Source: Pelagomonas calceolata (Eukaryota > Sar > Pelagophyceae > Pelagomonadales > Pelagomonadaceae). Taken from it: DNA of 64,000 nt. The DNA lies in the NCBI GenBank assembly GCA_918797485.1, contig CAKKNE010000003.1:3286001-3350000 (forward strand), read 5' to 3'. The position numbers and the translations under genes were made by a program. Within the stretch, counting starts at the first letter, position 1. Each line of letters starts with the position of its first letter. Below the pieces are notes generated by a model that saw only the letters and a program-made list of their open reading frames with translations, did no database searches and had not been told where the DNA came from. Positions 6,916 to 56,280 of this stretch are shown here, piece by piece.

Positions 6916-7983
6916 TCACGGCGCCGCTGCTGAAACTTGGAGCTTGATCCAGGCTGGGCCGAGGTGGTTCGGGCGTGATTTACCCTCGAAAATTCTGGCG
7001 AGATCCAAGATGGCACAGTCAGCCAAACTCCTCACGAGTTCACTTGGAAACTGAGCAGCGAGGTCCGCATACCTCAGCGGTGGCTTGACGTTGGCCTCTA
7101 TGAGCCAAGCACGCGCCCTATGGTCAACAATGAAGTCAAAACCGACAAATGCAAGTGTGCCGTAAGGAAGGTCGTACCAGATGGCGTCGTGAACGAGCCC
7201 GACAACCGCTGCGATGTCTGGTTTCGTTCGTGTGTCAAACGTATTTCCCTCAAGAGCGTCTCGAACAGTCGCCTCTGATGCAATATTTGAGGTATAGAAC
7301 CGACCAAAAGCGTCTAGATCCCTTTGAACTTTCCTATTCATAAGCCCTGAAACTGCGGTCTTTGCACGGTGGCATTCAAACAGCCAACAGTCCGTCCTTC
7401 GAAGCAAAGCCCACACGCGAAGCTCAAATATCGATGGGCCAATCGGGAGTATTGCTGGATCCACGGCACGCTGGATTACAACTGCGTGACAAGCAACCAT
7501 GAGCACTTTGGCGAATATGCGTGCCGCTTCAACATTGCCCGCTGGAAATGTGCCAGTGCCCCCGCTGGTACGCGGGTGTTTCACGAAAAAGTGGGTTGTG
7601 GTAGGCAGCGTATAACTGATTATAGATTCCGCTCTCCATGCTGTTACGGCTCCATTGCTCCGAAGGATCCATGTCTCAGGCCATCTTCGTCTTATGTTGC
7701 TCCTCAACGCTAACTGCTCCAGCCGTTCAAACAGATGTGCCTTACATGTTAACGGGGGGCATATTGCCAGCCAGACCCACTGGTGTACTCGCGGGGCGGC
7801 AGGGGGGGGGCGTTCTGTTGCTAGAACCACAGTCGCCTCACAAAAATGATGTGTATGTTTCCAGCCACGCTTGCGCAACTGTAGCGCTATTGCGTGCCGG
7901 TGATTGTTGCAGAGGAATATTCGTGAGCTTCTTCGCTCATCCTTTCCTTCGCTATGAGTGCATTCGGTCGATAGACAGGGCAT
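6916..7983 (-). CDS. Tubulin-tyrosine-ligase (TTL) family-like protein
   Basis: This 355-aa ORF shows the ATP-grasp pattern of TTL/TTLL amino-acid ligases, which add tyrosine, glutamate or glycine to tubulin, often on axonemes. Visible segments are FFVKHPRTSGG (ATP-binding lysine and glycine-rich loop, about residue 140), VIQRAVDP, FELRVWALL (the family's D/E-x-R-x-Y/W strand) and near the end GFDFIVDHRARAWLIEANVKPP, the conserved metal-binding D...E-x-N. It lacks the extra domains of long TTLLs. ATG 7983 is the first in frame, with a GGTACC 28 bp upstream, and it is divergently arranged with kinesin-2. The N-terminal 100 residues match nothing I recognise. The subfamily and substrate cannot be assigned. 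Confidence 0.7.
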   Translation of the reverse strand: MPCLSTECTHSEGKDERRSSRIFLCNNHRHAIALQLRKRGWKHTHHFCEATVVLATERPPPAAPRVHQWVWLAICPPLTCKAHLFERLEQLALRSNIRRRWPETWILRSNGAVTAWRAESIISYTLPTTTHFFVKHPRTSGGTGTFPAGNVEAARIFAKVLMVACHAVVIQRAVDPAILPIGPSIFELRVWALLRRTDCWLFECHRAKTAVSGLMNRKVQRDLDAFGRFYTSNIASEATVRDALEGNTFDTRTKPDIAAVVGLVHDAIWYDLPYGTLAFVGFDFIVDHRARAWLIEANVKPPLRYADLAAQFPSELVRSLADCAILDLARIFEGKSRPNHLGPAWIKLQVSAAAP

Positions 7984-8232
7984 CTTCTTGTAGTACTAGC
8001 CTGCACAGCAGGTACCTATCCGCTGTAGAGAGAGAAACCTACTAGCCCATCCTACCCTAGATATGTATCTCCCACTCTCTAAATTTGAGTCTATACATTG
8101 AGTGTGTATCGACGCTACGGTGTAAACCAATTTGCTAAAAAACACTCTCGTAGTTAGGTTGGCCCAGCCTCTGGCTGGTGAGCTAGGACCCTGCTACCTT
8201 ACATAACGCTGCGACATACTCTTGCTACGCTG

Positions 8233-8316
8233 ATACCTACGGTACCGCAGTACGGTACCTACGGTACCTACGGTACCAGCAAGTACCGTAGGTACCGTGG
8301 TACCGGTACCTACGGT
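8233..8316. promoter_or_regulatory. GGTACC 9-mer array in divergent promoter (TTL-like / kinesin-2)
   Basis: Seven GGTACC hexamers occur in about 84 bp (8241, 8254, 8263, 8272, 8291, 8299, 8305), largely as tandem GGTACCTAC units followed by their reverse complement GTAGGTACC. The array lies 59-142 bp upstream of the kinesin ATG at 8375 and about 250-330 bp upstream of the TTL-like start at 7983. A regulatory role is inferred from recurrence at other divergent pairs. Confidence 0.5.
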
Positions 8317-8374
8317 GGAGGGCAGATTTTACAACTGGACTGTCATAAGAACTCGGCAAGGCCGTCAATTTAAT

Positions 8375-10504
8375 ATGCCAGATGAAAGTGTTAAGGTAGT
8401 TGTACGCGTACGACCGTTGTCGCGTAAGGAACAGCAAGATGGGCACCTTGCGACGACCGTGGCTGACGAAGATCAAGGCACAATAACCTGCAATAACCCT
8501 AAATCTGATATCGCAGATCCACCAAAAGTCTTTACTTTTGACGCCGTCTTTGCTTCCGGCTGCAACCAGAAATCTATTTATGATAAATGTGGAGCTACGG
8601 TAGTGGAAGCGGTACTTGATGGTTACAATGGAACAGTCTTTGCCTATGGTCAGACAGGTGCAGGTAAGACCTTTACCATGGAAGGTTTATCAGAACCCCC
8701 CGAGTTGCGTGGCATTATCCCAAATGCATTTCAACATATCTTCGACAAGGTGGCGCTCGCCGCGGAGCAACAGCACTTTCTAGTGCGCGCATCATACCTC
8801 GAGATTTACAACGAAGAGATACGCGACTTGTTGTATTTATCACGTGTCGGCTACTAATCTTTAAAATAGTTTATTTTATTCTAAAATGGTTGTGTGTAAT
8901 AGCGTCAAAAACACAGGTCCAAGGAACCAAAAAATAGATTGGATCTCAAAGAAAATGTGGACTCGGGTGTATACGTCAAAGATCTGACCTCTTTTGTGGT
9001 CAGGTCGTCTCATGAAATTGATCAAGTTATGCAGGCAGGTAAAAAAAATAGATCCGTTGGGGAGACGCTAATGAATGCTGGTTCGTCCCGGTCTCATGCC
9101 ATATTTACAATCATTGTGGAATGCGCAGAAGTAGATGAGAAGCGTGGTGAGCACATTCGCGTAGGAAAATTAAATCTCGTGGATTTGGCCGGGTCAGAAC
9201 GGCAGTCAAAGACAGGAGCAACTGGCCATCGACTCAAAGAAGCCACAAAAATTAATCTCTCACTGTCTGCACTTGGAAATGTGATATCTGCTCTTGTTGA
9301 TGGCAAGTCACAACATATCCCATACCGCGACTCTAAACTTACTCGATTACTTCAAGATTCTTTGGGCGGAAATACAAAAACAGTGATGTGCGCCAATTGT
9401 GGCCCAGCAGGCTATAATTTTGAGGAGACCATTTCGACTTTACGATATGCCAATCGAGCCAAAAACATCAAGAATAAGCCAAAGATTAACGAGGATCCCA
9501 AGGACGCTATGCTCCGTGAATTCCAGGACGAGATAAAGCGGCTCAAAAACCAGTTAGCTAACCAAGGCAACAGAAATCACAGGGCTACTATGAATGAGTT
9601 CATGCTGGAAGAAAAAGTCGTGGAGAAAATAGTTGAAGTGGAAAGAATTGTTGAGGTGCCGGGCGCAGCGACGGAGGAAGAGCTGGCTGAGCTTAAAGCA
9701 ACAGTGGATAAGGAAGCAGAACAAATGCGTCTCCGAGCTGAGGCTGAGATGAAAGAAGTCATCGACTCCCAGACGCGCACGACCAAAGAGCATGAGAAGC
9801 TACGTCAAAAACTCGATGCAGAAGCAGGTCGCGCTGCGCACTCTGAGAAGCAGCGCATTCTGTTGGAGAGGAAATTACGATCCATGCAAGAAAAACTGAT
9901 GCAGGGGGGTAGACTGTTGGATAAGGCAGCCAAACAGGAAGCGATGTTACGCCGCGCTCAGCTTGAACTTGAGGAACGTAAAGAACAAGAACAGGCCCTT
10001 GCACGCCAAGTCCGGGCGAAGGAAGAGGATGTATTTGCCCTGGAGGAAAAGTATGCGAGTAAGCAGGATGAAGCAGATGATAAGACCAGGAAACTAAAAA
10101 AACTTTGGCAGAGGCTTCAGTCGTGCCAAGCAGAAGCTCATGACGTGCAGGAGGAGTTCCAGCGTGAACGAGAGGACATGCTCGACACGATTCGTGAGCT
10201 TTCAAAACAACTTAAGCTAAAAGAGTTTCTAATGAAAAATTTTATACCCATTGGGGAGGAGCGGAAATTTGAAGTCCGTGCCACTTGGAATAACGAAGAG
10301 GAACTGTGGGACCTTGCGTGCCCCGCATTTTCTCATAGCCAACACCACTTTAAAGGGCACTGTTCTTGGTGTTCGGCCGGTGTGATAGACCTAAATCGAG
10401 ACTACACAGACGCAGACGAGCCCAGCAGCCATATACCAAATCCTTATCACAATTATGATAAAAGAGATGGAATTGCCAAAAAAGTAAGTTCATCTAAGGT
10501 TTAA
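8375..10504 (+). CDS. KIF3A: Kinesin-2 motor (KIF3/FLA10-like)
   Basis: Plus-end microtubule motor, most likely a heterotrimeric kinesin-2 motor of anterograde intraflagellar transport. Exons 8375-8832 and 8917-10504 give 681 aa. The N-terminal motor domain shows VKVVVRVRPLS, AYGQTGAGKTFTMEG (P-loop), NAGSSRSHAIF (switch I), LNLVDLAGSER (switch II), YRDSKLTRLLQDSLGGN and the family neck start YANRAKNIKNKPKINEDPKDA, which is diagnostic of kinesin-2. A long coiled coil follows (about residues 370-590), then a small tail. The start ATG 8375 gives MPDESVKV; an in-frame upstream extension would be translated from the GGTACC array and is rejected. The 84-nt intron starts GTATTT, has TACTAAT as a likely branch point, ends ACAG, and interrupts the conserved IRDLLSK segment. 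KIF3A versus KIF3B is not settled. Confidence 0.93.
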
Positions 10505-11399: not shown

Positions 11400-14300
11400 T
11401 TAGTTCTGGTCCTTGCAATGAAATTTTGAACAGCGTCGCGTATGCTCAATGATGGAGAGGGATATCGGGAGACCATAGCACACTGGGGCGGCACCATTAA
11501 GGTTTCTTAGTTTTGTCTCTCTCCTAGCTGCGTTTAGAATGTCAGGTATCGGACAACTTGGGCTTTTAGCCATTGACTGTAGCAGATACAAAGTGATACG
11601 ATCAATATCACGATCTGTGACGTCCCACAGCATAGCAACAACGATCGGAGTCCCTCTAGCAAGCAGCTCGAGAGCCATTCCCTTTGCTTCAAAATCACCT
11701 ACTCGCGAGAGAGCACCCGAGGAACAGCCCATAAGCAGCACTGCAGACATGAAATTAGATGCAACAGCAGACTCCAGGTAAGCGCCTCCATAGCCGTGAC
11801 CGCAAAAAAGAAATGCAGCACAGTTCGGCATCTTGGCGGTCAGCTGTGCTGCGACATCACGGGGTGGCATATCACCGAGAGCAGCATATGACCACACAAG
11901 ACCACTCGTGGCGTTTGTCTTAGTATCGCCCAGATATTTTGCCAGCTTATGACGGGTAGAGGGCAAGTTCGCCTGTGGATCGACAACGCAGCAGGCACGC
12001 ATAGGAATATCATTATTGATGGTATCCGAGACACTTAGATTCATCCCTGTTGCAAGTGATAATGCAAATGCGAGGGAAGGCACGCGTGATATTGGTGCAG
12101 AACGTGGGACAGACAGAGCTTCGAAAGGCAAAAATTGGAGCTGCTTGTCCAGTGCTAAAATCATAGGTTGGCGAGCTTTCGCTACCTTTCGGGGTTGCAT
12201 CACACATTGTGATGTAATGGCCGCCTTTTGAAGCACACCAGCGAGCCGACCAAGCAGTGGCCTTTTTAGGCCCAAGTTGCTGAGCCTCAGGTCATCCAAA
12301 GCGGCCTTGAGATCCAAAATCGTCAGCTTGTAGAGAAGAGTGAGCCACAGACGAAGCAACATCTTCATGATGCAGGGGGAAGCGGTTCCTCTTATGTCAA
12401 CAACCCCAAACCTACTGGCACAGAGAAGCGTGTTGGCTTCCAGTAGAGTTATATTGGGTGCAGCCCAGAAGCATAGCTGCATGATCTGGTATTCAACACT
12501 AATCGGAACTTCGGCACTTTGCTTAGGACGGAGTATGGACGCAGGCTTCGTTGCAAAAAGCGCACGCATTGCACCAAGCCAAGACTTGTCAAAGCCAACA
12601 AGCCCAGCATGTAGGACTGAATCGAGAGAGTGCCGTTGGCACCACCAGATTCTGCGCGCAGCAGTATGATTGCTCCTGCTGGTAAAAAGCAGCTTCGAAC
12701 GTTGAGGCAGCAAGGACGCATCTGCGCGAAGACCAGCAGCAGAGGCCTTCAGAGCCTTAGCAGAAGTTCCAAGGGGAGAAGTCGAAGTATCTGAATCGTA
12801 CCAGCTTTCTGGGAGGCCTGAGCATAGTGTGATTGGTTGTTGACCACGCTGAAGCCGTGAAATCACAAGGTGCCCTGTTGGCGATATGAAACCTGCAACA
12901 AGGGAAAACGTTTTAGGAAACGGCGCCAGCAGCCGATCGAGAACATTCCGATCATGTGTTTCAAGAGTGTCGCACCAGCCTAGAGCTCCTGCATTTGGAA
13001 CTTCAAGTAAGCCCATGAGGAGATCATCTACTCCTGCCATTGCTCGGCTCAAGAGGCTATTTGAGTCGTTAGAAGTAGCAAACGCATGGCGTGCACGTCC
13101 CAATGACGAGTGTGCGAGAAGCGCCACAAGTGGGGACGAAACCGCACCTGGGACAAAGTGAAGTGCAGCCACAGTGAGGGCGCGAGCACTCTTTGCCGCA
13201 AGTTTCCACTCGCATTTTCGCCGGGCATAACTAAAGGCATGACGAAGCAAATCCAGGACTTCCGATGCAGCAGCAGTGTTGCTAGATGCCACATTGAAAA
13301 GTTGTCGAGCCAGGCGGTATCTAAGCCAGGAACTTCTTAGCATGATGGATGATGACTGAATGCGCAGTGACTCGCGATAAGTGGCCACTGCCCGAGACCT
13401 GCGACATCCAATGTCGATAAGACGGGCGCCGCTGCTTATAAGAAGCTGACAATGCCGCAATAAGCCAGCGTGACTTTGTTTGCCACTGATGGCATCGACC
13501 TGCCAAGGTGACGATTCAGTGAGGCATTCGTCTATGACTTTGAGGACTTTACTTGCTGACTTGTAGCACCTACCTGCAATTTCCAGTTTACCTATGCGCC
13601 TAAGTAGATCGCCCTCATTAAGAACCTGCTCAAGACATCGGATATTCTCAGGAAAGTCGATGCTATTATCATGACTAGCAAGGTCTAGAACCAATGCTGC
13701 ATCACCCCAATCCTGCAAGGAGATAGCAAGACACAATTCAAGCCCTCTTGCCGCCTGCCTTAATTTGTGACATTGCTTGATACTAGCTGCACGCTGTACA
13801 TATTTGGATGCACGTGCACTGCATCCCCGAACAAGCCAGAGCCGTGCAAGATGAAGCCAGAGTACACCCTGGATCATTGCCTTCGACTGTGCAGAATCTC
13901 GAATGGCATATAAATTGCGTTCACACCAGCAAGGTGGGAACCTCGAAAGTATCTCGAGAGAACCAAGAGCATTTGTGGCGCCCGAAATATTTGCAAGATG
14001 CATTTGTGTAGCGAACATTTCAAGCCCAATTTCTGCAGCTGCTCGCCGTTGCATATGGATAAGTGCTTCGTCCAACGCAATAGCTAGGTGTGCTTCAGCT
14101 ACGTTGCCACTCGGCTTGCCTTGCACACGAAGTAAATGATGCCGGTCATCGAAGTAAGGCGGGGTTCCAACCTCACAGCAACATAGATTTTCAAATGGTG
14201 CTACAACAGAGTCCCCACCGACAGTGACTAACATCGAAGAAGACGGCCCTATTGATCCACTACGAAGAGCCGCAATCGCAGACGACGCGATAATTGCACT

Positions 14301-16382
14301 GTGCAGCTGTGGTACTAGCCTCGCCAGTGCACCACATGAACGAATCTCACAAATGACGTTTTCGACAGATGCAAATGCATCCCGCAACAATGCTGTCGCT
14401 AACGCCAGATGTTCTACGTGTACTGAATGTAGATCGTGCAGCCCCTCAAGGCCTGAAAGCGCAGATGCTTCGTGGGTCACATCTCTGTAATGATTATTTG
14501 CATTCGACTCGCAGCCTATTGCTAATGCTAGGGAGCAACACGCAATGGAATCAGTAGCTGAATTAGAACCTGGTGACCCCATGCAATAATTTGCAAGTAC
14601 GGCACCAGCAGTATAAGAACCTCGGCGCACAAGCGCGATACTCGCGCGAGACAATGTTAGCGCAGCTCTAGCTACATCACATGTTGCCAGCTCCTCGGCC
14701 GCAGTGATAAATGTTGAGATGCTACTTTGTCTTTCGCAGATCCCGAGTCTTTTTCTAAGTACATCCTTGACATGCATCAAACCTGAAGATTGGAGTAAGT
14801 CGAGGAGGGATGGAGGTAACATAGTGTTAACTACAGCCCGCGAATAGCATGTGACAGCATCAAAAATCGAGGCCTCGTCAATGCAGTAGCAGGTCGACCA
14901 CGCAGCAGCCGCAGCAGCATCAAAGTCTCGCTTAAGCCGGTCCAGACAATTTGCAATCCCAATCCATGGCACGGCGCTGCCACTTGTCCGCAGACTAGCA
15001 CGTTTTAGAAGTGCAGCAGCCACGCCAAACGTACGAGTATCTGTTGCTCTGCGAAGAACTACGAGGCCAGTTGCTGCATAGCCCATCGCAGCTCGCTGAG
15101 CTGACGACATGCCCTCAGCAGACTTGGAATGTGTGGCTACTTTGTCGAGCGCACTACGCTTGGCAGCAAAACTGGCTGCAAGCCAACATGCATCTGCACG
15201 CTGGTTGCATGCACTACTTTCCTTCATATACTTCCCCCATTCATGGCGCGCCAGAGTAAGAAGAACTGTCTCATAATGTGAGTAGCCACATGCTTTTGAA
15301 TCAGAGTAATGTCCAAATGCGGTTGGCGCATTAGAAAGTGCTATCCATGCACGCCGCCACACAGAAGAAATATATTGGTCTGTCTTACTTATCTCCAGGG
15401 CACAATTAAAACACCTGTTAGCCTCGGCAAGTGCTATTGTTGGCTTTCTTTGCTTTCCAAGATCTGAACAGTAAAGAACTCCGTGAAACAATGGCCAGTC
15501 CCCTAGCTGTGCCCGACCCCTAGCTCGGACGCGCGCCGCTCCAAGCTTATCGCCAGATGCGTCTAAAGTTATCGCGCGTCGCGTGCACCACTCAAACATG
15601 ATGTGTGGCGTGGCCCTCCACGGATCAAGCTGTCCGTCAAGAGACGAAAACCACTGCACACGAGCAACAACAGAAGCAGGAGCCATCTTTTTGTGTGTCG
15701 AAAGGCCATGTAGGGCTTCACTCGTGACAATATCCACAGCTTCAGGTGCTACGGCGACAAGTACTTCTAATGCTGTGCGTCTACAGGTCCATGCTATGTC
15801 TGCCAATTCTGGAGATGCCGCCTCAAGTGCAAAAGCACCTTTCCAAAGTGTCGCTCGTAGTTTGTCTGCATACTCTCGCGGAGATATTGACTGCACCCTG
15901 CATTGCTCCTCTGTGGACATCACATAGAGTAATGTGGTAATAGCCCTGGCACTCCACGCACCTTTAGCAGCCAGTGCTTTTGCCCCCTTTAAGCTTGGGG
16001 TGGTGACGATACTGTTAAGTTGCAGCCGTGCAGCATTCACGCTAGCTCCCGCTCCGAGTGCTACTGCAGTGAAAGACCACGCATCTGCTCGTCGTTCTAG
16101 TCGTTCTTTAAGAACATCCGCCAATAGCAACGCGTGGATATTCGTGACCTTGTTTTCCACTGCGCGACTGATGGCTTGGTAGAGCCACTTATCACACGAT
16201 GAATCGTCTCCAGGGTAAGCCGCAAGATCATTGAGAGCTACAACTGCATCCTCGAAAGCTCTACGGCTGGCATGCTGCTTCAACCCAAGCTGCGTGCGTA
16301 ATACTAGTGACCTCACCTCTCCACCGCCCTCTAGTTCTACCCTATTGCAGCGTGCATTCGCACTTGCCTCCCGGCGCGGCAT
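11400..16382 (-). CDS. ESPL1: Separase (C50 peptidase)
   Basis: The cysteine protease that cleaves cohesin at anaphase onset. One uninterrupted frame of 1660 aa from the preferred ATG 16382 (MPRREASANARC). The C-terminal catalytic domain shows the conserved histidine motif FCGHGYGGAYLES and the catalytic cysteine motif VLLMGCSSGALSRVG, followed by GTPIVVAMLWDVTDRDIDR, all hallmark positions of separase and CHAT-like proteases. ILALDKQLQFLPFEAL precedes them. The long N-terminal region is alpha-helical and TPR/ARM-like in look, as in other separases. A longer start at 16424 would add a stretch encoded by the GGTACC array and is less likely. There is no intron in 5 kb, unlike several neighbours. 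It is divergent with RSP3. No securin is seen in the window. Confidence 0.9.
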   Translation of the reverse strand: MPRREASANARCNRVELEGGGEVRSLVLRTQLGLKQHASRRAFEDAVVALNDLAAYPGDDSSCDKWLYQAISRAVENKVTNIHALLLADVLKERLERRADAWSFTAVALGAGASVNAARLQLNSIVTTPSLKGAKALAAKGAWSARAITTLLYVMSTEEQCRVQSISPREYADKLRATLWKGAFALEAASPELADIAWTCRRTALEVLVAVAPEAVDIVTSEALHGLSTHKKMAPASVVARVQWFSSLDGQLDPWRATPHIMFEWCTRRAITLDASGDKLGAARVRARGRAQLGDWPLFHGVLYCSDLGKQRKPTIALAEANRCFNCALEISKTDQYISSVWRRAWIALSNAPTAFGHYSDSKACGYSHYETVLLTLARHEWGKYMKESSACNQRADACWLAASFAAKRSALDKVATHSKSAEGMSSAQRAAMGYAATGLVVLRRATDTRTFGVAAALLKRASLRTSGSAVPWIGIANCLDRLKRDFDAAAAAAWSTCYCIDEASIFDAVTCYSRAVVNTMLPPSLLDLLQSSGLMHVKDVLRKRLGICERQSSISTFITAAEELATCDVARAALTLSRASIALVRRGSYTAGAVLANYCMGSPGSNSATDSIACCSLALAIGCESNANNHYRDVTHEASALSGLEGLHDLHSVHVEHLALATALLRDAFASVENVICEIRSCGALARLVPQLHSAIIASSAIAALRSGSIGPSSSMLVTVGGDSVVAPFENLCCCEVGTPPYFDDRHHLLRVQGKPSGNVAEAHLAIALDEALIHMQRRAAAEIGLEMFATQMHLANISGATNALGSLEILSRFPPCWCERNLYAIRDSAQSKAMIQGVLWLHLARLWLVRGCSARASKYVQRAASIKQCHKLRQAARGLELCLAISLQDWGDAALVLDLASHDNSIDFPENIRCLEQVLNEGDLLRRIGKLEIAGRCYKSASKVLKVIDECLTESSPWQVDAISGKQSHAGLLRHCQLLISSGARLIDIGCRRSRAVATYRESLRIQSSSIMLRSSWLRYRLARQLFNVASSNTAAASEVLDLLRHAFSYARRKCEWKLAAKSARALTVAALHFVPGAVSSPLVALLAHSSLGRARHAFATSNDSNSLLSRAMAGVDDLLMGLLEVPNAGALGWCDTLETHDRNVLDRLLAPFPKTFSLVAGFISPTGHLVISRLQRGQQPITLCSGLPESWYDSDTSTSPLGTSAKALKASAAGLRADASLLPQRSKLLFTSRSNHTAARRIWWCQRHSLDSVLHAGLVGFDKSWLGAMRALFATKPASILRPKQSAEVPISVEYQIMQLCFWAAPNITLLEANTLLCASRFGVVDIRGTASPCIMKMLLRLWLTLLYKLTILDLKAALDDLRLSNLGLKRPLLGRLAGVLQKAAITSQCVMQPRKVAKARQPMILALDKQLQFLPFEALSVPRSAPISRVPSLAFALSLATGMNLSVSDTINNDIPMRACCVVDPQANLPSTRHKLAKYLGDTKTNATSGLVWSYAALGDMPPRDVAAQLTAKMPNCAAFLFCGHGYGGAYLESAVASNFMSAVLLMGCSSGALSRVGDFEAKGMALELLARGTPIVVAMLWDVTDRDIDRITLYLLQSMAKSPSCPIPDILNAARRETKLRNLNGAAPVCYGLPISLSIIEHTRRCSKFHCKDQN

Positions 16383-16397
16383 GGGACCGTAATACAC

Positions 16398-16420
16398 CGT
16401 AGGTACCGTAGGTACCATTA
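16398..16420. promoter_or_regulatory. GGTACC pair in divergent promoter (separase / RSP3)
   Basis: GGTACCGTAGGTACC at 16402-16416 lies 20-34 bp upstream of the preferred separase start (16382, minus strand) and about 330 bp upstream of the RSP3 start. It is the same self-complementary unit as at 8233-8316. Confidence 0.45.
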
Positions 16421-16739: not shown

Positions 16740-17792
16740 ATGGCTAATTCAGCTTACACACACACAACTTCTCCTAAGCCCTTGTTGTCAAAGATGAAAA
16801 AAACGACGTACAGAGCAGAGGACGAAGAAAACATAATAACAAACAACATAATGTTTGATCGACGTGTTGTACGCGGCAATACGTACGCCGCCCAGGTTGT
16901 AACTCACAACACGCAGCGGGAAGTTGAGCGTATGAGATATGAAAGCGAGCGGACGCTACGGAGGGACGCAACATGCCAACGCAAGGAGCGGCTAGCTAAG
17001 CCAAGCACCCCTCCGCCCGCAGAAGGGAGAGCTCACATCAAAGCTCAAACAGACACTTTCCTCGAAGAACTGTCTGATCGCCCGGTGGAGAGTGAGGCTG
17101 TGACGCAAACTGAGGCTATTTTGGACCGACCTCCATCGCCTTTGTTCATCCCATCAAAGACTGGAGTTGACAAAGAAACGGATATACCTGGCGGTGACCT
17201 TTTTGATTTTGACATTGAGGTAAAGCCAATACTCGAGGTATTAGTTGGTAAGACCCTGCGCGTTTCAATGATGGAGGTAATGGAAGAGGCCGAGCTTGAT
17301 GCTATTCAGCGCCGCCAGATGGAATTTGAACAAATGCGGAATGCTGAGCTTGTTGAGGTCCAGCGCCTTGATGCAGAAGCCTCGAGGCGTTTCGCAGAAA
17401 AGCAGCGGCGTTTCACTCAGGAGACGGACCGGCTTCGTCAGCAGGCAGAGCTTGGGCAAAAGGTTGCAGCCCGTGCATTTGCCAGGAGCTATCTTGCGAA
17501 TCTTTCCGAGCTTGCCTTCGACCAGCTTGAAGACTCAGGCCACTTTGTTGATCCTGTTGAGAAGGAGATTCAGGATAGCTTCATCCCATGGTTATTCGAT
17601 AGTGTAGTTGAGACCACCAATAATCATATCAGCTCAAGTAGCTGCGTTGATGCTCTCATTGTCGACGCAATTGAACTAGCCAGCAACCTACAGAGCGATG
17701 TCATTAAGCAAATAAAACAAAAAGAACGTGCTCGGGTCTTTGCCGTCGAGGATGCACAAGAAATAAAAGAGGCTGAGGGGACGGCAAAATGA
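16740..17792 (+). CDS. RSPH3: Radial spoke protein 3 (RSP3)
   Basis: Structural base of the axonemal radial spoke and A-kinase anchoring protein, located in the flagellum. The 350-aa frame begins MANSAYTHTTSPKP, like the Chlamydomonas YTH-AEPK start, and contains the family signature NIMFDRRVVRGNTYAAQ (about residues 38-54), a PPSPLFIPSKTG segment, the glutamate-rich helix with VGKTLRVSMMEVMEEAEL (about 170-190), and SFIPWLFDSVVE near residue 285, which corresponds to the amphipathic anchoring helix region. The C terminus is shorter than in algae. The ATG at 16740 was chosen because upstream in-frame codons do not match the family. No intron is seen. The gene is good evidence that the organism builds a motile 9+2 flagellum. 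Confidence 0.94.
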   Translation: MANSAYTHTTSPKPLLSKMKKTTYRAEDEENIITNNIMFDRRVVRGNTYAAQVVTHNTQREVERMRYESERTLRRDATCQRKERLAKPSTPPPAEGRAHIKAQTDTFLEELSDRPVESEAVTQTEAILDRPPSPLFIPSKTGVDKETDIPGGDLFDFDIEVKPILEVLVGKTLRVSMMEVMEEAELDAIQRRQMEFEQMRNAELVEVQRLDAEASRRFAEKQRRFTQETDRLRQQAELGQKVAARAFARSYLANLSELAFDQLEDSGHFVDPVEKEIQDSFIPWLFDSVVETTNNHISSSSCVDALIVDAIELASNLQSDVIKQIKQKERARVFAVEDAQEIKEAEGTAK

Positions 17793-19349: not shown

Positions 19350-20981
<1,632 letters not shown>

Positions 20982-23055: not shown

Positions 23056-23069
23056 GTTTAGGCTCTTTT

Positions 23070-23225
23070 CCGCAAATTACGCACAGCCGGGCGTTTTTTT
23101 ACGTGAGAAACGGCCCAGCGCAAATCACGCCGTGTTTTACGCGCAATTTACGCGTGCTTTTATTAATAAACCCGCGCGCACGCAGCCTCACTGCGGCAGC
23201 TGAGCCAGAGAGCGCCTAAAACTTT
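23070..23225 (-). mobile_element. Partial MITE of the Tc1/mariner-like family
   Basis: Reverse-complement fragment of the element at 10802-11119 and 43420-43865: CGTTTTTTTACGTGAGAAACGG, GCGCAATTTACGCGTG and the GAGCGCCTAAA segment are shared. Only one end region is present, so the copy is truncated. It lies between the copia-type fossil and the CFAP57-like gene. Confidence 0.65.
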
Positions 23226-34736: not shown

Positions 34737-34765
34737 AGGAGGTACCGTAGGTACCTGCGTACCGT
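34737..34765. promoter_or_regulatory. GGTACC pair in divergent promoter (HECT ligase / MOCS3)
   Basis: GGTACCGTAGGTACC at 34741-34755, flanked by GTACCGTAGGA and CGTACCGTAC, lies 60-74 bp upstream of the MOCS3 ATG and on the 5' side of the minus-strand HECT gene. Confidence 0.45.
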
Positions 34766-43419: not shown

Positions 43420-43865
43420 GGGTGCGATTTACGTGGAAAAAACGCGTAAGTTACAAGTAAAGCACCGCTACAGGAGATCCCACGTAAAAAACGGCGTAAA
43501 AAAGGAGGTATCCAAAAGTCCTTCCAGGGCTCCCGAAGCCGGCGCTAGCAGCCCTTTTAGACACTAGCTCGCGATCAGCACCTCGCAGAGTGTGGCTGCC
43601 CCAAACGTTGTCAGAGCCGAGCCAATTGCTAGTTGCATGCTGTTGCGAGCAAGGTGTGCACTCTAGGTGTGGGCTTATGCGCCGTGCTCGTGCTGCTATT
43701 GAACTGCGTGGCCACCAAGGCCTTGTTTAGGCGCTCTGCCTGCGTGTGTGCGGGTTTTATAAATAAATGCACGCGTAAATTACGCGTAAATTGCGGCGTA
43801 AATGACGCTGGACCGTTTCTCACGTAAAGAACGCCCCGGGCCGGGGCCGTGCGTAAATCGCACCC
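43420..43865 (+). mobile_element. Tc1/mariner-like MITE, copy 2 (larger)
   Basis: 446 bp with terminal inverted repeats GGGTGCGATTTACG / CGTAAATCGCACCC flanked by TA on each side (43418-43419, 43866-43867). It shares CACCGCTACAGGAGATCC, GTGTGCGGGTTTTA and CTGGACCGTTTCTCACGTAA with copy 1, but has about 110 bp more (about 43505-43615), so copy 1 is a deletion derivative or this copy carries an insertion. No ORF of note. Confidence 0.85.
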
Positions 43866-45931: not shown

Positions 45932-46717
45932 TTACGCGTCGGTTTCAGCAAGTACGTTGAGATGGCCATCAATCTCCTCTTCGGTGAGTGCATGGCAGCT
46001 TGAGTCGCCCGAAAGGAGCATCGCCTCGATTTCAGACGCCTTAAAGTCAGCGTTGAGAACGGATTGGAGGGCGGCGATGGCGCACTGGACTGTCTTGTCT
46101 GCGTCATAAGTAGCAAATTCGTCGACCTTCTTCTCAAGGAAATTCGTTGCCTCCGACTCCTTGGCTCCTGCGGCTGTCGCGAAGTAGGGGAAATGGTGGC
46201 CCGCGGGATCGACCTTGAAGATCTGGGGTCCCTTCTCTTCGTCGACGGCCGCAATGATGCAGATTGCTGCTAACGCCCGCAGCGAGGCCTTTTGTGTGTA
46301 CACCTGGCATATGTCTCCCACACGCTTAGCAAGCGACGCTACGGGCATGGCATACCCGTACTGAAATTTGAACTCGGCGGCCTCATATCGCAGCCTTGTC
46401 GCTTGTGTCCGACAATCTGCTGACATGCCTGTCATGAGCACCGCCAGTTTTTCTGTCACTTTGTACAAATTTGTCACCGACGTTGCATCGACCAAGCGGT
46501 CTGGCACTTTCTTCTGTGTCACGAGCACGCAGCTGTCTGCGCCGCGGACGGCAACCGAAGTTAGCCCCGACGTGGTCTGAGCGCATTTGATGGCGTACTC
46601 CACCTGATAAAGTTTGCCGGCGGGCGAAAAGATCGTGATGTGGTGGTCTGCGTGGGGAAGCGGGGCGTGGGGGACGATGAATTCGCGACGCGCACCATAG
46701 TTTGAGTCGCGGCTCAT
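45932..46717 (-). CDS. PSMA6: 20S proteasome subunit alpha-1 (PSMA6 type)
   Basis: Outer-ring alpha subunit of the 20S core. 261 aa from ATG 46717 (MSRDSNYG), which matches the family start MSRGSS better than the ATG at 46762. Segments are HHITIFSPAGKLYQVEYA (alpha signature), SGLTSVAVRGADSCVLVTQ, KKVPDRLVDATSVT, VLMTGMSADCRTQATRLRYE, KRVGDICQVYTQ, DPAGHHFPYFATAAGAKE, NFLEKKVDEF, and the end LTEEEIDGHLNVLAE, all of which fit PSMA6. Residues 9-23 (ARREFIVPHAPLPHA) are an insertion between the start and the signature that I do not remember from other alpha-1 subunits. It is intronless and divergent with the NELF-C/D-like gene. The codons are GC-rich. Confidence 0.94.
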   Translation of the reverse strand: MSRDSNYGARREFIVPHAPLPHADHHITIFSPAGKLYQVEYAIKCAQTTSGLTSVAVRGADSCVLVTQKKVPDRLVDATSVTNLYKVTEKLAVLMTGMSADCRTQATRLRYEAAEFKFQYGYAMPVASLAKRVGDICQVYTQKASLRALAAICIIAAVDEEKGPQIFKVDPAGHHFPYFATAAGAKESEATNFLEKKVDEFATYDADKTVQCAIAALQSVLNADFKASEIEAMLLSGDSSCHALTEEEIDGHLNVLAETDA

Positions 46718-47142
46718 TCTCAGATTAGCACCCCAACAAACGCGCCGCAAGGGGTCACGCAAACTCTCCTGAACTAGACGAGGTCCGCAACCCCTGTCCT
46801 AGGGCTATAGGCTAGAGGGAGCGTAAACCTTTGCCGCCGCAAAGCGTTACTGACCAACCCGTGGGAAATTCAACGTTCCGGTCGGCGAATCAAATGCTCT
46901 GAACCATCCGGCACCGTGACGAAGACTCTGGAATCATGAATCGCCATTATTGTACAGGGCAAAGAGCCCAACTAACAGGACAGGTGACATGCGCTCTGCT
47001 GGCTAGCGTGGCGCTCTGCGCTCTGAGCTCGGGCCGTCGACTGGCCCAGCATCGGCTCTAGCCTTCCAGCTTAGTAATGTCGGTCGTGGTATATACTTGG
47101 CTAGAGATTGCGGGCATCAAAGATGGCGAGAGCGTAGCTTTG

Positions 47143-48880
47143 ATGGCGTTGACAAGTGAAATTGCGAATCAAATGGATCCTCAATTTCTAGATGCTGCGA
47201 GTTGAGATTAACGCACCTGAAACTCCTCACCTGAAATCACAGGCGTCACTGCGGCAAGTAAATATTCGGCCCTCGTCACTGGATCAACTTCTGGTAAATA
47301 GACAAGGTCGAAATTTCATTTTGGAGCTTTTCAGCTCCCTTAAAAAACAAGGCTACGGTCGATCAGACTTCCTTAGCCTCTGCCTTCGAGAGATCATAGC
47401 CATCGGGCACGTCAGTGAGTTGCTTAAGGTTTGCCCAGGCGACCATATCCTCATTTAGTCCGGCTTGCCTGCCTGGTTGTAGGCCCGCGATCTAATTCTG
47501 TGCGAAGACTTGCACGTTTTCGATGCAGCATTAGTCTATTTCAGTACATGTGCCAAAAATGCAATGCAAAACGCTGCACCCTATGCGTTGGATGAGCGGG
47601 CTATACCGGCCTCGGTTCTAGTCATAGAAAACGTGTTACAACCATGCAGTATGTGCCTTGAAGCTTCATGCTATGCCTTTCACTTTTTTAAGATGCTCGA
47701 GGAGGGCGACGTCAGGGATGAACTTCTCTGGCTCCGTGCTGGACTGGAAATTAGGCCGAGTGCCGGAATTCCAGAAAGGGTTGTGATTGGCAGCTGTGGG
47801 ATATCGTTAAGAAGCAATTTGCGAGAAGCTGCGCTTCGTTTCTTAAGCAAGGATTCATCTTCGGTCCTGGATAAACTCCCTGACAGTTTCAGTCATAACC
47901 CTTCGTTCCTTGATCTGCCCCTCGTTGCAGATCGCCTCTTTGCAATAGCGTCCTTGCCGCGTTAAGCTCCTGAAATTTTAGTGCATTGTTTGAATTGATG
48001 TAGGTTTGATCCTCAACTTGCACATGGGGTGATTCTCCCAGTCATATCCCTTATGATCGCAGTTGCGGCGACTAGGTCAACAGGTTATCGAAGGAATGAG
48101 CCGCGGGACGATACATCAGCCATCACTGCGGAGTTGGCTTGCACAGCAGCATCAGTTCTTGCTTGCGGCCGACGTTGCCTAGAGGAACGTCTGGTAAGTC
48201 ACCCTAATGAACTCGAAGCTGATGGATCCGTCTCACGTGGGGATGCCCTTCTTTCTCTATCTCGGTATTTTCCAGCAGCGCGGCATGGAGTACTTGTTTG
48301 GCTTAAAAAATGCCTGCTGGACCCTGGGTGGCTCTCGACGAGGCTATCACGATTTAGTCCAACCCTCATTTCTATACTGAAGGTGTATGCTACTTACCCA
48401 CGGTCACAGAGAGAAGTCTTTGAAGTTTTGAAATTGGTTGTTGAAAATCCGTGGAGAGCAATCCCTGCTGCTTCTTATGCGAAATGCGATGGAAGTGCCC
48501 TAAGCCCACATGTCCAAGAAAAGTATGAACTTACTGATGCCCGTAAAGCTGCTCTATTTGCACTTATTGACCTTGCCGTTGCCTGGCATGGTGCCCCCGA
48601 GGTCCTCTACTTTGTTGAGAACAGCAAGGGCATTGATGCGTCTCAATTAAGGCATGTCGTTGTGCAACTCTCCCGTAAGACATTGCCACCATACTCGTTT
48701 CGTTTTGCCCATGCCGTTGCAACTTTGCTCTCTTGCTTCAAGGCAAAGCAGATATGGCACTCAGAAACTTACTCCCACGAAGACCGGCAGCTAATTCGAA
48801 CGCTATCCAGTCAAATTGCAACTACTCTCCGGGGGCGCACAATCCATTACACTTACCTTGCTCAGTTGGGGTGTGGTTAG
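47143..48880 (+). CDS. NELFCD: NELF-C/D (TH1)-like protein
   Basis: TH1/NELF-C/D family: in animals a helical subunit of the negative elongation factor that pauses RNA polymerase II. Exons 47143-47196, 47243-47428, 47483-47958 and 48004-48880 give 530 aa (human about 590). Match by eye to TH1: HGVILPVISLMIAVAA, RYFPAARHGVLVWLKKCLLD (TH1 RFPVVAMGVLKWV), SPTLISILKVYATYPRSQREV, DARKAALFALIDLAVAWHG, PEVLYFVEN, and LRHVVVQLSRKTLPPYSFRFA (TH1 IRYFVTEVLDVIAPPYTSDF). Introns at 47197 (GCGAGT) and 47959 (GCGTTA) need GC donors. The middle one (47429) is GT-AG. Identification rests on scattered similarity in an all-helical protein, so it is moderate. No other NELF gene is in the window. Confidence 0.6.
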
Positions 48881-49164
48881 AGAGTGTGGTATATGACCAC
48901 AACATGACGAAGTGTCTCATGCAGGCTAATAAACATTAGGGTTCGGCGGTCTATTCGGCCGAGGGAGGACGCTGCCGAGAATTCCTCATGCTACGCATGG
49001 GAAGTGCTCCATCCTGGGGACCCGGGGCGAAAAGCGCCGCTGGGATGTAGACCATTGCGTGTCCTCCGTCCTCGATTTTTAATAGGTTATTCAATCAAGC
49101 CATCTAATCAGCTTGGCCTAGACACAAGCCGGAAATTCCCTTAGAGCCCTTGTAGATATGGAAC

Positions 49165-51000
49165 GTTAGGAAATAATTTTTCCGTAATTATGGTTCAATT
49201 TATACGTCTCAGGGGCGAATTTTGGGTTGGGGTTCGGGCTTTATTGCAGCGGCGCGCATGGTCGCACCGCGTCGCGGCTGCTTGCTCTGCGCAAGGCTGC
49301 CCGCATGGTACCAAATTGCGCACAGCCCATTATTTTAGCATACGGAACCTGCGAACTCAGCAAAAATTTCCCGCCATTCGGCCGGCGCGTTGCTGTTACG
49401 CACATTGCGCAAAATCAAAGTCGACTAATTGCGCTTACCCCCCTATAAAATTGGAAGTCTCCACGCAGCATTAGGATTCGCAGGGTAATTCATCTTAATT
49501 AGGACTCATGAAGGATGGGTCAGTTTCTTATTCGAAAAAAAATTACGGCAAGGGGGGGCCCTACTAATCAGCCAAGCTAAGCTACCCGCCGGGCTAGAAC
49601 GAGATCCTGTTTTTTTTTTGTTTTTTCAAATTGTGGGCACTAATGAGCATTGGCTGGCTGTCCCGCCCAAAGCTGCTGCCCCGCCACGCAACTAGAGTGA
49701 CAGACAGCCTTATTATTATGCTGGTCCGCGGCCTCTGTTGCGCACCAATATTGTTGACCACTTCCGAGTCATGAGAAATCACGGCTAGGTGGTTTATATA
49801 ATAAATAAATTTGTAAGCGGGCTATGGTTAAGGTGCACCATAGTAAACGCCAGCGTCGGAGCGTCGCTCACGCTGTTAGGGCTGTGGCGTAAGGACAGTT
49901 TACCGGCAGCCGCAAGAAATTACTTACGATATTTACACTGCGAGGATTCGTCAACCAATTTCCTAAAACTATTCGCAACGCGCCTGGAATAGCGTGCGTT
50001 CTACAGTTGCAGTAACTGTTCCTCAAAAGTTCGTACACATCAAAAATCTTAAAGCTTTTGCGTTTTTTTAGGCTTTCTTGCAACGAGGTGAGCTAGGAGC
50101 TGCCGCGGCAGTGGACAATAGGTGAACAATAGGTCAACAAAGGTTGCCCGTACGTCGCGGCCGCCATATTTGTTTTAGCCTGGAAATCGTGCCGTCGCTA
50201 TCTCGCTCATTGCTACATTACACGCATATTTTCCTCGTCCCTGGGCTCTGTCTAAGCTTGGTCTACTATGACCCCCGGCAGCGCCAAGTCGTGGGAGGTA
50301 TTTCCGTGATAGGCTTAGCTGTGGTGCCTCAAAAGTCGGCCCCGTGCGAAGCGAAACCCAAGATGCATTTTTCATAAAAGCCGCCGTGTTTGCGCATCCT
50401 AACGACGCAACGGGTACCAAAGGGGGCTTCGGGAGAGGGGGATCCACCCGCGAGTAGGCTATATACCCGAAGCCCATCTCGAGGCACCTCCGTGGCAGGC
50501 TAGTATCGCCGTGTGCTTAGGATGGATGCCCCGAAACCCCAACGGGAGAAGGGAAGGCGCCCCCTTCGGACTACCAATTGAAAATAAGACCAATTTGGGG
50601 TCCGGCCCCACCGTGAGAGCCAACTTAAAAATCCTTCAATTTGACCTTGAGACTTATATCTACAGGGAAGGAACGGTGCTAACTAGTACTAGTAGGAAAT
50701 ATTTTTTTCGTAATTAAGGGTCCATTTATTTGTTTTATACGCCGGAGTTTGCATGCAGGCGATTCCTGGTTTTGGCGGGTTTTATCATCCGGCCTTTGCT
50801 GCTTTGCATCGCACCGCGTCGCAGCTGATTAGCGCGAGGCTGCCCGCAAGGTACCGATTTTTTGCGCAGCCCAAATTTAGCATACGGAACCTGCGCCTCA
50901 GCAAAAGCCCCCTCCTCCATTTGGCCGGCTTTTGCTTGATCCGCGGCCCTATAAACTTCGAACTTGAAGTTCCAAGCAGTTTTTTTTTTATCACCTCGGT
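49165..51000 (+). repeat. Direct repeat pair R4 (about 310 bp each)
   Basis: 49165-49480 and 50690-51000 share, in order, TAGGAAATAATTTTTCCGTAATTA-like sequence, GCACCGCGTCGCGGCTG, AGGCTGCCCGCATGGTACC and TTTAGCATACGGAACCTGCG, and end near TATAAAATTGGAAGT/TATAAACTTCGAACT. They lie 1.2 kb apart in the same orientation. They may be two insertions of one short element or the ends of a larger one. The sequence between them has no gene. Confidence 0.7.
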
Positions 51001-53828: not shown

Positions 53829-55892
53829 CTAATAATTGCTTCGGAGGTCGATTAACAAGTGCGAGGACCTTAAACTACCAGGTCTTACAAATTGTGAATT
53901 TTGTGATTTTAAGTTAAGAATTTTGACTCTACTGTCACCTTCCAGCCTGGACTGGCGATTGTATTCACAAGAACGGTATAGTTCTGTTAGTTCAGTGAGA
54001 ATCTCGTGGGACGAACAGCGTCCCTTGTCACGCCAGCCAATGACAATTAGACCATTTTCATCTTGGGCATCTTCGTCGAGTTGCATATCAAATCTGCTTG
54101 AGGCCAGAATGGTTTTGTTGCTGTTTAGACCAACATTAAGCATGTGGCCACCACAGGCAGAGATACAGTTCTGCCTTAAATCTAGTAGAACTAAGACAGG
54201 TGAAATGGGAAGAAGCTTCGATGCAAGTAAGGATGCTGCAATGTCTCCAAGGCTGTTATTACACAAGACAAGGTGGGATAGTAAATCACCTGGTTTTGGC
54301 CAAGGTGGGATGCATAGAGGGTGGCCTTCAGACGCAATGTAGGCTCCGAGCTTCCTCAATATGTCTATAATCACATGATCCTTTAATCGCAGTGCCGAGA
54401 GATTTATCCTTAACAAATGTGTCCCACCAAGTTGAGTCGAGTGATAGCAAACAGCTTGAATATACCGAAATGTTGCCTCTTGACTGGGTGGCTTCACTTC
54501 GATATTTGACATGTTCTTGGTTTGATTTAATACTCGCAAGATTTCAGCAAGCTTCAATGCGATAAGTTTGTGTGTAAGGAAGTTTTTCCAATCGAGCTCT
54601 TCCACAGCGCATAGTAGGTTGTCGGACACACCATCCTCTCGGTTGGCTGTAAAATGCCGCCAGCTATTTTGTTGTTTGCATGTTTCCATTGAAGCATTTT
54701 TTCTGAAGCTCTGTAGGGAGCTACTTGTCTTAATCGTTTTGTCTTGCAGGTGCCGATGATCCGCCAATTGCTGCGCTACTAGACTAGTCTGTGCTGGTGA
54801 ACAACCCTCTAAGGACAGTTGCTGACGCCAAAGAATATCGGCAACGGCAATGGCATTCATCTGGTGCTGAAGAAACATGCAATACATAGCCAAACGATTT
54901 CTTTCTTTCGCTAGTTTGTGGTCAGTTTCACTATCTAAGGCGCTGTTGTGGCACTTGTGGTGCATTTTATGGCTCGAAATTTCTGGAATAGGCGATGCTG
55001 TGGTACTTGTGATTGCATTCGACTGCACGTCATCTAGTATATGTGCGGAGGGGGTCTCCTTCATATTCTGCACAGTGTTTATCTTGGTTGCCAGTGTGCA
55101 TTTCTTCATTGACTGATGCTCCTCGCAAACTTTGTCTTGATAACACCTATTGTTCTCCAAGGCTATCCGATCATGTTTTATTTGGCATACACCCTTGCGA
55201 AGTAGTTCGAATTTCAGCATGCTTAAACTCTGGTCCAGCAGGTGTGACTCTTGCCTTTTGTGTAGCAACTTCTGCCGGACACCCGTAGCTACGCACCTTG
55301 GAAGCCCCAACCGCCGGATTACAGCCGCATAGTTTGTGGAAGTTTCAACGACGATGGCTTTTTCCATTTCTGCTGCGGAAACTTCACATGCACGCAGTGC
55401 GAACCCTCTCGCTGTGTACTTGCTGCTACTGCGGCTAGCCAAAGCAAGAATACGTCCACATTTCTTTCTGTAGCCGCTAGTTTCTGCGACCGAGATCCTG
55501 TACTTGTTAGAGGTATTTCTTGCAATGTCTTGCCACTTCGCAACTTCATCATGGGCTTGACACATAATTGCAGAAGACTTTATTTGATCGTCCTGTCTTG
55601 CTCTATTAGCATTAAATACCTTGCTTTGTTGATTACTAGCTATGTACTGTGTTGCGTTTAGTGCTGTTAGCCAAAAGCGCGTTTGCAGCGTGACAGTTCC
55701 TTGCTGAATGAGAACACGTTTCATCGCTTGCTGTAAGTTTGCCTGGTTGCCAGTTTCAGTCTCGGTAGGTTCAAGTTGTAAACGAAGCAAAGATCTATGT
55801 GTGTTGTCAAAGTATTCCCTTAAGGCCTTTTGCCTGAATTTTGTCGAAGCTGGCAGCTTATCCACTTGGTTTTTACTTCGGCGAACCACCAT
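53829..55892 (-). CDS. Coiled-coil protein with C-terminal leucine-rich repeats
   Basis: One frame of 687 aa, ATG 55892 (MVVRRSKNQVDKLP). The first 450 residues are hydrophilic, helical and glutamine/lysine-rich without a domain I recognise. Residues about 495-620 have ribonuclease-inhibitor-like leucine-rich repeats: LLRINLSALRLKDHVIIDIL, LLSHLVLCNNSLGDIAASLL and LVLLDLRQNCISACGGHML. After that a basic tail runs to the stop. Proteins with this layout often act in cilia or basal bodies, but I cannot name the family. AT-rich codons contrast with its GC-rich divergent neighbour. The gene is intronless and its promoter holds a GGTACC array. Confidence 0.7.
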   Translation of the reverse strand: MVVRRSKNQVDKLPASTKFRQKALREYFDNTHRSLLRLQLEPTETETGNQANLQQAMKRVLIQQGTVTLQTRFWLTALNATQYIASNQQSKVFNANRARQDDQIKSSAIMCQAHDEVAKWQDIARNTSNKYRISVAETSGYRKKCGRILALASRSSSKYTARGFALRACEVSAAEMEKAIVVETSTNYAAVIRRLGLPRCVATGVRQKLLHKRQESHLLDQSLSMLKFELLRKGVCQIKHDRIALENNRCYQDKVCEEHQSMKKCTLATKINTVQNMKETPSAHILDDVQSNAITSTTASPIPEISSHKMHHKCHNSALDSETDHKLAKERNRLAMYCMFLQHQMNAIAVADILWRQQLSLEGCSPAQTSLVAQQLADHRHLQDKTIKTSSSLQSFRKNASMETCKQQNSWRHFTANREDGVSDNLLCAVEELDWKNFLTHKLIALKLAEILRVLNQTKNMSNIEVKPPSQEATFRYIQAVCYHSTQLGGTHLLRINLSALRLKDHVIIDILRKLGAYIASEGHPLCIPPWPKPGDLLSHLVLCNNSLGDIAASLLASKLLPISPVLVLLDLRQNCISACGGHMLNVGLNSNKTILASSRFDMQLDEDAQDENGLIVIGWRDKGRCSSHEILTELTELYRSCEYNRQSRLEGDSRVKILNLKSQNSQFVRPGSLRSSHLLIDLRSNY

Positions 55893-55997
55893 GGAAGCCA
55901 GCGCGATCGTTGGCTGTTTTCGCGTCCCCGAATCTCCAACACCGTCTTACATTACATGCCAATATAGTCGAATAACCATCGAATATTTAATTCTCCG

Positions 55998-56090
55998 GGT
56001 CCGGCTACCTACGCACCGTTGGTACCTACGGCCCGGTTACCATGGTACCTACGGTACCGTGGGTACTACCTACGGTACGGTAAGGAGCTA
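55998..56090. promoter_or_regulatory. GGTACC 9-mer array in divergent promoter (LRR gene / SFI1-like gene)
   Basis: Three GGTACC hexamers (56021, 56044, 56053) plus near matches (CTACCTACG, GGTTACCATGG, GGGTACTACC, TACGGTACGG) within about 95 bp. It lies about 130-165 bp upstream of the LRR gene start and 95-160 bp upstream of the first plus-strand ORF. Confidence 0.5.
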
Positions 56091-56280
56091 CACCTACAGA
56101 TCTTACCTCCGATACCTACCATAATGCCGTACGGCAGCGTGTTATGCAGCCGATGAGAATAATGGTACAGAGAATATCGTGACGAGTATATGCGTTAAGT
56201 TGTTTTCGTCTACGCGGGATATCCATCCACTCGTGCTAAAAATTAACGAGGCGCCAGAGGAGCTCTCCTTGAGGCCCTCA

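Follow-up and report, generated by a model that had tools for sequence, protein, structure and literature searches.

We analyzed a 64,000-base stretch of chromosome 3 of the pelagophyte Pelagomonas calceolata (contig C3:3286001-3350000; hereafter the window), in which an earlier note had described arrays of the hexamer GGTACC between divergent genes. We found that some exact arrays of this motif are joined to short dispersed repeats, an association that is new here. The explanation we favor, tentatively and at a little under an even chance, is that the arrays are a common tandem palindromic motif of short interspersed repeats restricted to one genome compartment. This explanation is based on the following observations: The arrays are restricted to certain blocks of the genome; those that could be resolved lie just upstream of genes; two repeats (F1 and F2) form junctions with arrays, four F2 copies doing so at the same base; and the TAC spacer between GGTACC boxes is randomly oriented. 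Overall, we read the element as a compartment-restricted, repeat-borne, promoter-proximal array with a putative binding protein, putative mobility, and a putative effect, all three deduced from sequence.

Genes of this abundant ocean alga lie in DNA that its genome paper interprets as centromeric. A cis-element and repeat set confined to one compartment offers a handle on how such genes stay active and a means of recognizing such regions, a 1-Mb chromosome end among them, from their sequence. It also offers a case in which the idea that mobile repeats spread a possible regulatory site through a single nuclear compartment can be tested. The published genome of strain RCC100 has 32.4 Mb in six nuclear, one plastid, and one mitochondrial contig, with a mean GC (guanine plus cytosine) content of 63% (PMC9481584); we searched 32,445,274 bases in 8 contigs. 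In the available text of that paper, one 52% GC region per chromosome, averaging 259 kb, is interpreted as the centromere, with support from Hi-C contacts between such regions (PMC9481584). The same text states that repeats have not accumulated in low-GC regions; its figure covers repeats >500 bases, a range under which the ∼200 and ∼170 bases of F1 and F2 fall (PMC9481584). The GC of the window is 0.51, compared with 0.72 and 0.61 for loci at 3.00 and 3.60 Mb of the same contig, which places the window inside the GC trough of chromosome 3.

GGTACC arrays in the window

GGTACC occurs 31 times in the window, against a mean of 9.07 and a maximum of 17 in 100 dinucleotide shuffles, so the chance expectation of about 16 per 64 kb in the earlier note was too high. 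The word GGTACCNNNGGTACC was found at five positions (8254, 8263, 16402, 34741, and 56044; shuffle mean 0.01) and the exact core TACCTACGGTA, on either strand, at eight, all in four 5′ regions and with core centers 27 to 180 bp from the nearest candidate start codon. The four arrays, whose coordinates the earlier note had given correctly, have no assigned strand and extend as follows.

8233-8317: the largest array, with seven GGTACC boxes plus partial units and mixed TAC/GTA spacers, its edges 58 and 142 bp upstream of the kinesin start codon (ATG 8375)
16394-16416: two to three units before separase (ATG 16382, minus strand); the candidate ATG of radial spoke protein 3 (RSP3) is at 16740
34729-34765: array before a ThiF/MOCS3-like gene (ATG 34815)
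56012-56080: array between the open reading frames (ORFs) 53832-55946 (minus strand, ATG 55892) and 56125-56646 (plus strand, ATG 56281)

All seven hexamers reported at 8241-8310 are present, but only three (8254, 8263, and 8272) keep the 9-bp step. Likewise, the unit described as self-complementary is so at the level of the hexamer but not of the 9-mer: GGTACCTAC has the complement GTAGGTACC, and both orientations occur. Around 49 copies of CCTACGG in block sequence, including some loci picked for the motif, the flanking letters of GGTACC-TAC-GGTACC were retained in 69 to 84%. As reported, the divergent pairs RCC1/RPN11 and PSMA6/NELF-C/D lack the motif, there being no GGTACC in 19702-34740 or 41722-49306.

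Genome-wide distribution of the arrays

The spaced GGTACC pair occurs 187 times genome-wide, compared with 13 for the reversed motif, which served as the control at genome scale. The spacer is TAC or GTA in 170 of the 187 pairs and in none of the controls. The catalogue of these 170 15-mers is complete (82 are followed by T, 71 by G, and 17 by A or C), and they form 110 clusters that all fall in eight segments totaling 3.3 Mb, or ∼10% of the genome.

Contig C1: 2.776-2.873 Mb
Contig C2: 0.051-0.063 and 3.476-3.659 Mb
Contig C3: 3.096-3.566 and 4.319-5.371 Mb
Contig C4: 1.478-2.298 Mb
Contig C5: 1.481-1.802 Mb
Contig C6: 1.608-1.962 Mb

Each chromosome thus has one internal block; chromosome 3 carries a further block in its terminal 1.05 Mb on the right, and chromosome 2 one at its left end. 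The right end of chromosome 3 holds more 15-mers (94 of 170) than any other block. Only 37 100-kb bins are occupied where 93 were expected (minimum 84 in 2000 simulations). Exact 13-mers number 307 (control 1) and 11-mer cores 497 (control 12); among the positions listed, those of C1 and C2 look complete. On C1 (6.28 Mb), all seven 13-mers lie at 2.776-2.873 Mb, within 100 kb, and 10 of the 16 cores lie in the block, with 6 elsewhere against ∼2 predicted by the control rate. Inclusion of 13-mers and cores widens the left block of C2 to 27-230 kb. In a transect of C3 through 17 loci at fixed places, the core occurred eight times in the 3 right-end loci (30 kb) and not at all in the other 14 (140 kb). 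Thus, the proposal that arrays are confined to promoters did not hold for promoters in general: They are restricted to ∼10% of the genome, where 11 of 17 arrays examined lie near gene starts.

Pairs with other spacers number 17, and among the 8 of these that were listed, 3 lie outside the blocks (C1:992385, C1:2554426, and C2:4789332). The pair at C1:992385 sits in a high-scoring frame; that at C1:2554426 (L002:1501-1515; L numbers denote loci) reads GGTACC-GCA-GGTACC and lies between the start codons of two divergent high-scoring frames, such that a promoter-like pair with another spacer is possible outside the blocks. The orientation of neighboring TAC/GTA spacers is random (14, 11, 9, and 8 among 42 pairs at the 9-bp step), which fits a symmetric double-stranded site and speaks against an mRNA signal.

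The compartment that carries the arrays

The internal blocks are probably pericentromeric, as judged from GC measured for C3 and for 3-kb loci on C1 and C2. The C1 loci have GC of 0.50 to 0.61; on C2, GC is 0.65 at 3.476 Mb and 0.51 to 0.65 at the left end. The right end of C3 (C3:4319274-5385517, sampled by L030-L032) is 1.05 Mb long, has its motif and repeats in common with the internal blocks, and shows an overall GC of 0.62 to 0.68 in its three loci. Its non-coding GC is 0.527 compared with 0.636 outside, its coding share 0.58 compared with 0.71, and its GC at third codon positions (GC3) 0.866 compared with 0.792. The available portion of the genome paper does not mention this end as a special region (PMC9481584), and the main text of a P. 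calceolata nitrogen paper mentions neither promoter, motif, centromere, nor low GC (PMC12054182). Recombination suppression alone is an unlikely explanation for the blocks, because the richest one has normal overall GC and high GC3, though its non-coding GC is low.

An introner-like repeat of ∼205 bp with inverted ends was found in 6 of the 14 C3 loci outside the blocks (L018, L021, L022, L023, L024, and L029). Copies of it lie at the following positions.

L018:5303-5503: introner-like repeat
L021:1556-1769 and 5786-5984: introner-like repeat, two copies
L024:4036-4240: introner-like repeat

This family has no match in 94 kb of block DNA (the window and L030-L032). Together with the low non-coding GC, its absence from the sampled block DNA indicates that the blocks differ in their intergenic DNA and not in the motif alone. 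Near the left end of C2 we also observed a 735-bp inverted duplication of 99% identity (L010:1-735 and L011:1-731, ∼6 kb apart).

Position of the arrays relative to genes

For 17 arrays, we examined the flanking sequence for gene position and repeat edges, taking distances from the core center to the nearest first in-frame ATG; several ORF calls are approximate because the hexamer coding models were trained on the same loci that they scored. We found that 11 of the 17 arrays have core centers 27 to 187 bp upstream of a probable ATG, so the claim that arrays lie near gene starts is borne out for these; the other 6 have no reliable start (two in L004 and one each in L005, L009, L031:9412, and L032:9597). 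Of the 11 genes, 7 have a Pfam match and 4 are called from ORF and codon score. Within the window, the distances are 86 to 136 bp for kinesin, 27 bp for separase, 67 bp for the ThiF/MOCS3-like gene, and 159 to 180 bp for the ORFs at 56 kb; elsewhere, they are 88 to 97 bp (L011), 169 to 187 bp (L012), 70 to 100 bp (L014), 79 bp (L030), 54 and 94 to 103 bp (L031), and 105 bp (L032). Against promoter placement, the L011 array lies inside an open frame with hydrolase similarity, and the separase array, ∼20 bp before ATG 16382, would fall within the first codons if ATG 16418 is used.

The core is carried by 4 of 13 promoters at the right end of C3 and by 0 of 65 outside (Fisher p = 5e-4), and 4 of the 6 right-end clusters fall in the 19% of non-coding bases predicted as promoter (p 0.014). 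Flanking frames are divergent for the four window arrays and for L031:2323 and L031:6783, and on the same strand for L030:4470, L032:6863, and L011:1501. Outside the window, where both neighbors were called, 2 of 5 arrays are therefore divergent and 3 of 5 are not, with half expected by chance at gene starts; divergence, which the earlier note took the arrays to mark, is thus seen in the window and in L031 but is not needed. Named by Pfam, the array genes outside the window are ketopantoate hydroxymethyltransferase (PanB), GT61, an alpha/beta hydrolase, and FPL, and the functions of array-carrying genes are unrelated to one another. As a separate observation, CACTAG, GCTAGT, and GGCTAG are enriched in the 250-bp upstream regions of L016-L032 (CACTAG in 13 of 78, 2.3 expected) and could be a general promoter signal.

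Dispersed repeats joined to the arrays

Two non-homologous repeats, F1 of ∼200 bases and F2 of ∼170 bases, were found at array edges.

8026-8232 (plus strand): dispersed repeat F1, which stops where the largest window array starts; 47 scored copies genome-wide
8011-8018 (no strand): GGTACCTA at the other side of F1, a possible target-site duplication with TACCTA at 8234-8239; single example
L031:6609-6775 (no strand): dispersed repeat F2, which stops 7 bp before an array

Genome searches gave 47 matches for F1, from 40 scored of 110 candidates, and 31 for F2, from all 31 candidates. All 47 scored F1 copies and all 31 F2 copies lie in or near the blocks, with block limits widened to 11.4% of the genome. 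Of 28 F2 copies complete at the 3′ end, 9 have an exact 15-mer no more than 30 bp from that end, whereas none of the 18 complete at the 5′ end has one so close (null mean 0.10). The null drew random places anywhere in the blocks; had it been confined to non-coding or promoter DNA, it would be severalfold higher, though still short of the F2 count. Four of the nine 3′-end arrays overlap F2 by the identical 3 bases, and F2 continues directly into GGTACC. For F1, an exact 15-mer lies within this distance at 7 of 78 complete ends (5 of 40 5′ and 2 of 38 3′; null mean 0.17). That two non-homologous repeats adjoin the same array suggests that it may be the shared end of a non-autonomous family or a preferred target, and the idea of a short promoter-targeting repeat, raised in the earlier note, gains from these junctions.

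The window copy of F1 has GGTACCTA on its left and TACCTACGGTACC on its right, a suggestive arrangement in this single case, as if F1 had entered GGTACCTACGGTACC and duplicated TACCTA; no duplication of this type was seen at the other F1 copies examined, among them that of L030. The ends of the window F1 are partly complementary by eye, and no inverted ends were seen in three F2 copies. Within the window, GGTACC lies near repeats in 10 of 31 cases compared with 10 of 127 for seven other palindromes, a weak contrast in that 2 to 3 of the ten represent the F1-array junction and the controls also lie in coding DNA. Other repeats of the window are a single GGTACC joined to a further family and two pairs of similar segments.

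58828-58914 (no strand): single GGTACC joined to dispersed repeat F9, which also occurs at the right end of C3 (L032:4644-4731)
6364-6674 and 21563-21878: repeat pair, 96.5% identity
5825-6013 and 36915-37095: repeat pair, 91.5% identity

Genes around the window arrays

The following genes near the window arrays have Pfam matches.

8375-10501 (plus strand): kinesin motor gene (PF00225), its motor domain divided between two ORFs
11403-16382 (minus strand): separase, C50 (PF03568)
16740-17789 (plus strand): RSP3 (PF06098)
31566-32945 (minus strand): HECT domain in three ORF pieces, three exons (PF00632)
34815-35621 (plus strand): ThiF/MOCS3-like (PF00899)

RCC1, a proteasome alpha-type subunit, and the C-terminus of RPN11 also have Pfam support, and TTL-like matches weakly (20.5 bits, cut-off 20.1). 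The ORFs at the places that the earlier note called LRR, SFI1-like, and NELF-C/D have no Pfam match. For the HECT gene no start was located, which leaves it without an array distance. No Rfam family reached its gathering score in the window or in loci L012, L030, L031, and L032.

Weighing of the explanations

The interspersed-repeat explanation would work as follows: A protein, probably a dimer or one with tandem domains, would bind GGTACC-TAC-GGTACC. This binder could be a transposase that mobilizes elements resembling miniature inverted-repeat transposable elements (MITEs), with the array as terminal or subterminal repeat or as target site, or it could be a host factor, its site having been carried to gene starts by the repeats. 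The two possibilities may also be combined, in that a mobile element would bring a promoter or chromatin element to places inside one compartment. A regulatory effect of the arrays is likely because the resolved arrays sit just upstream of genes. Several results weigh against this explanation. Exact arrays are missing within 30 bp at 19 of 28 complete F2 3′ ends and at 71 of 78 complete F1 ends, which leaves the majority of the 110 clusters without a link to either repeat, and no array is found at the ends of F1 in L030 or of F2 in L032 and L012. A repeat end of any of five families lies within 70 bp of 7 of the 17 arrays, but random non-coding places average 4.9 and reach at least 7 in 376 of 2000 trials; general nearness to repeats is thus no evidence, and the F1 and F2 junctions alone count. 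In addition, 70 of the 110 F1 candidates lay outside the scoring, the widening of block limits to 11.4% was made partly to include F1, F2, and single 13-mers, and an F2 copy of C1 sits 53 kb past the last array. No transposase was seen, though none was searched for, and for terminal inverted repeats and target-site duplications the window F1 is the lone suggestive case. F1 (47 scored copies) and F2 (31) do occur as multiple dispersed similar short copies, as MITEs do; with inverted ends and duplicated targets at most suggested, we stop short of assigning them to that class.

The main rival, and a strong one, is a host promoter element, in which a dimeric transcription or architectural factor keeps genes active or insulated in pericentromeric-type chromatin and repeats insert at open promoters. 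We give this appreciable, though clearly less than even, probability. It accounts for the 27 to 187 bp between cores and probable ATGs in 11 of 17 arrays, for the unrelated carriers (kinesin, separase, RSP3, MOCS3-like, FPL, GT61, ketopantoate hydroxymethyltransferase, and alpha/beta hydrolase), for the occurrence of the unit in either orientation, as expected of a symmetric DNA site, and for arrays being no nearer to repeats overall than non-coding DNA is. Incidental insertion would not be expected to yield the same-base F2 3′ junction in four copies or its one-sidedness (9 of 28 compared with 0 of 18), and the core is present in just 4 of 13 sampled right-end promoters. We consider rather unlikely a compartment address code, in which arrays on small mobile repeats would label gene starts in the centromere-associated blocks and the two chromosome ends; a single protein may then link loci and tune transcription in centromere-type chromatin, and low-GC blocks touch one another in the published Hi-C data.

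A purely mutational origin is improbable. The GGTACC arms repeat each other in direct as well as in inverted sense, from which slippage or template switching could expand and flip units without function, and the random TAC/GTA orientation and the strong hairpin predicted for the large window array (z −5 to −6) are in keeping with this; yet the three smaller window arrays fold unremarkably (z −1.8 to −0.7), and 110 clusters of one sequence, their confinement, and their position at gene starts would go unexplained. Co-regulation of flagellar and cell-division genes (kinesin, RSP3, SFI1-like, and separase) is more improbable still: Two or three of the four window arrays adjoin such genes, SFI1-like having no Pfam match, but the Pfam-named carriers elsewhere are metabolic or unrelated, the start of the L031 gene for a dynein attachment factor is more than 250 bp from any core (the GT61 array is 1.4 kb away in the common intergenic space), and the regional restriction is not explained. 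To chance or base composition we assign almost no probability: Low-GC blocks do differ in composition, but the counts against controls are 170 to 0, 307 to 1, and 497 to 12, and the richest block, the right end of C3, is not low in overall GC. Viral origin was rejected, as a triple-box scan of IMG/VR, from which records close to the window's genome were possibly excluded, turned up 63 stretches that all had spacers other than TAC or GTA. The early motif of an Aureococcus giant virus, as given in the available text, is AAAAATGA, a different sequence (PMC5917014). Among open-license PMC papers, a search for four 11-mers yielded papers with unrelated titles, and searches on pelagophyte promoters brought up nothing on this motif.

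Comparison with known systems

MITEs and the subterminal repeats of DNA transposons such as En/Spm combine unrelated interiors with common short tandem terminal motifs that are bound by transposase; inverted ends and target-site duplications, however, are not demonstrated for the Pelagomonas repeats. Introner elements of pelagophytes, described as ∼200-bp dispersed repeats in the P. calceolata genome (PMC9481584), share size and genome with F1 and F2, but the introner-like sequences are distinct from them and were found in sampled C3 loci outside the blocks, with no match in 94 kb of block DNA. BEAF-32 and class I insulators of Drosophila, according to the accessible text of a genome-wide mapping study, lie near promoters and are enriched between divergent promoters (PMC2797089); the likeness, one of position alone, lies in the nearness to promoters and, for the window arrays and two in L031, in the divergent-pair setting.

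The nearest functional parallels are ISX and SPE2/PfSIP2. In Drosophila miranda, the ISX transposable element dispersed binding sites of the dosage-compensation complex over the neo-X, at 77 places as given in the available text (PMC4384637). As there, a mobile repeat would have spread a short protein-binding motif, putative in our case, to many places in one compartment, whereas here the motif is a palindrome array, any bound protein is hypothetical, and the compartment is made up of an internal block on each chromosome and stretches at two chromosome ends. In Plasmodium falciparum, SPE2 has 777 predicted sites, and PfSIP2 binding is reported in the accessible text to be exclusive to subtelomeric heterochromatin; the SPE2 arrays are mostly sense-oriented, with 12 bp spacing, ∼2.2 kb upstream of var genes (PMC2829057). 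In both systems, tandem arrays of a bipartite motif precede genes within a single kind of chromosomal domain, but the Pelagomonas arrays are randomly oriented, lie about 30 to 190 bp from unrelated genes, and occupy blocks that are mostly internal.

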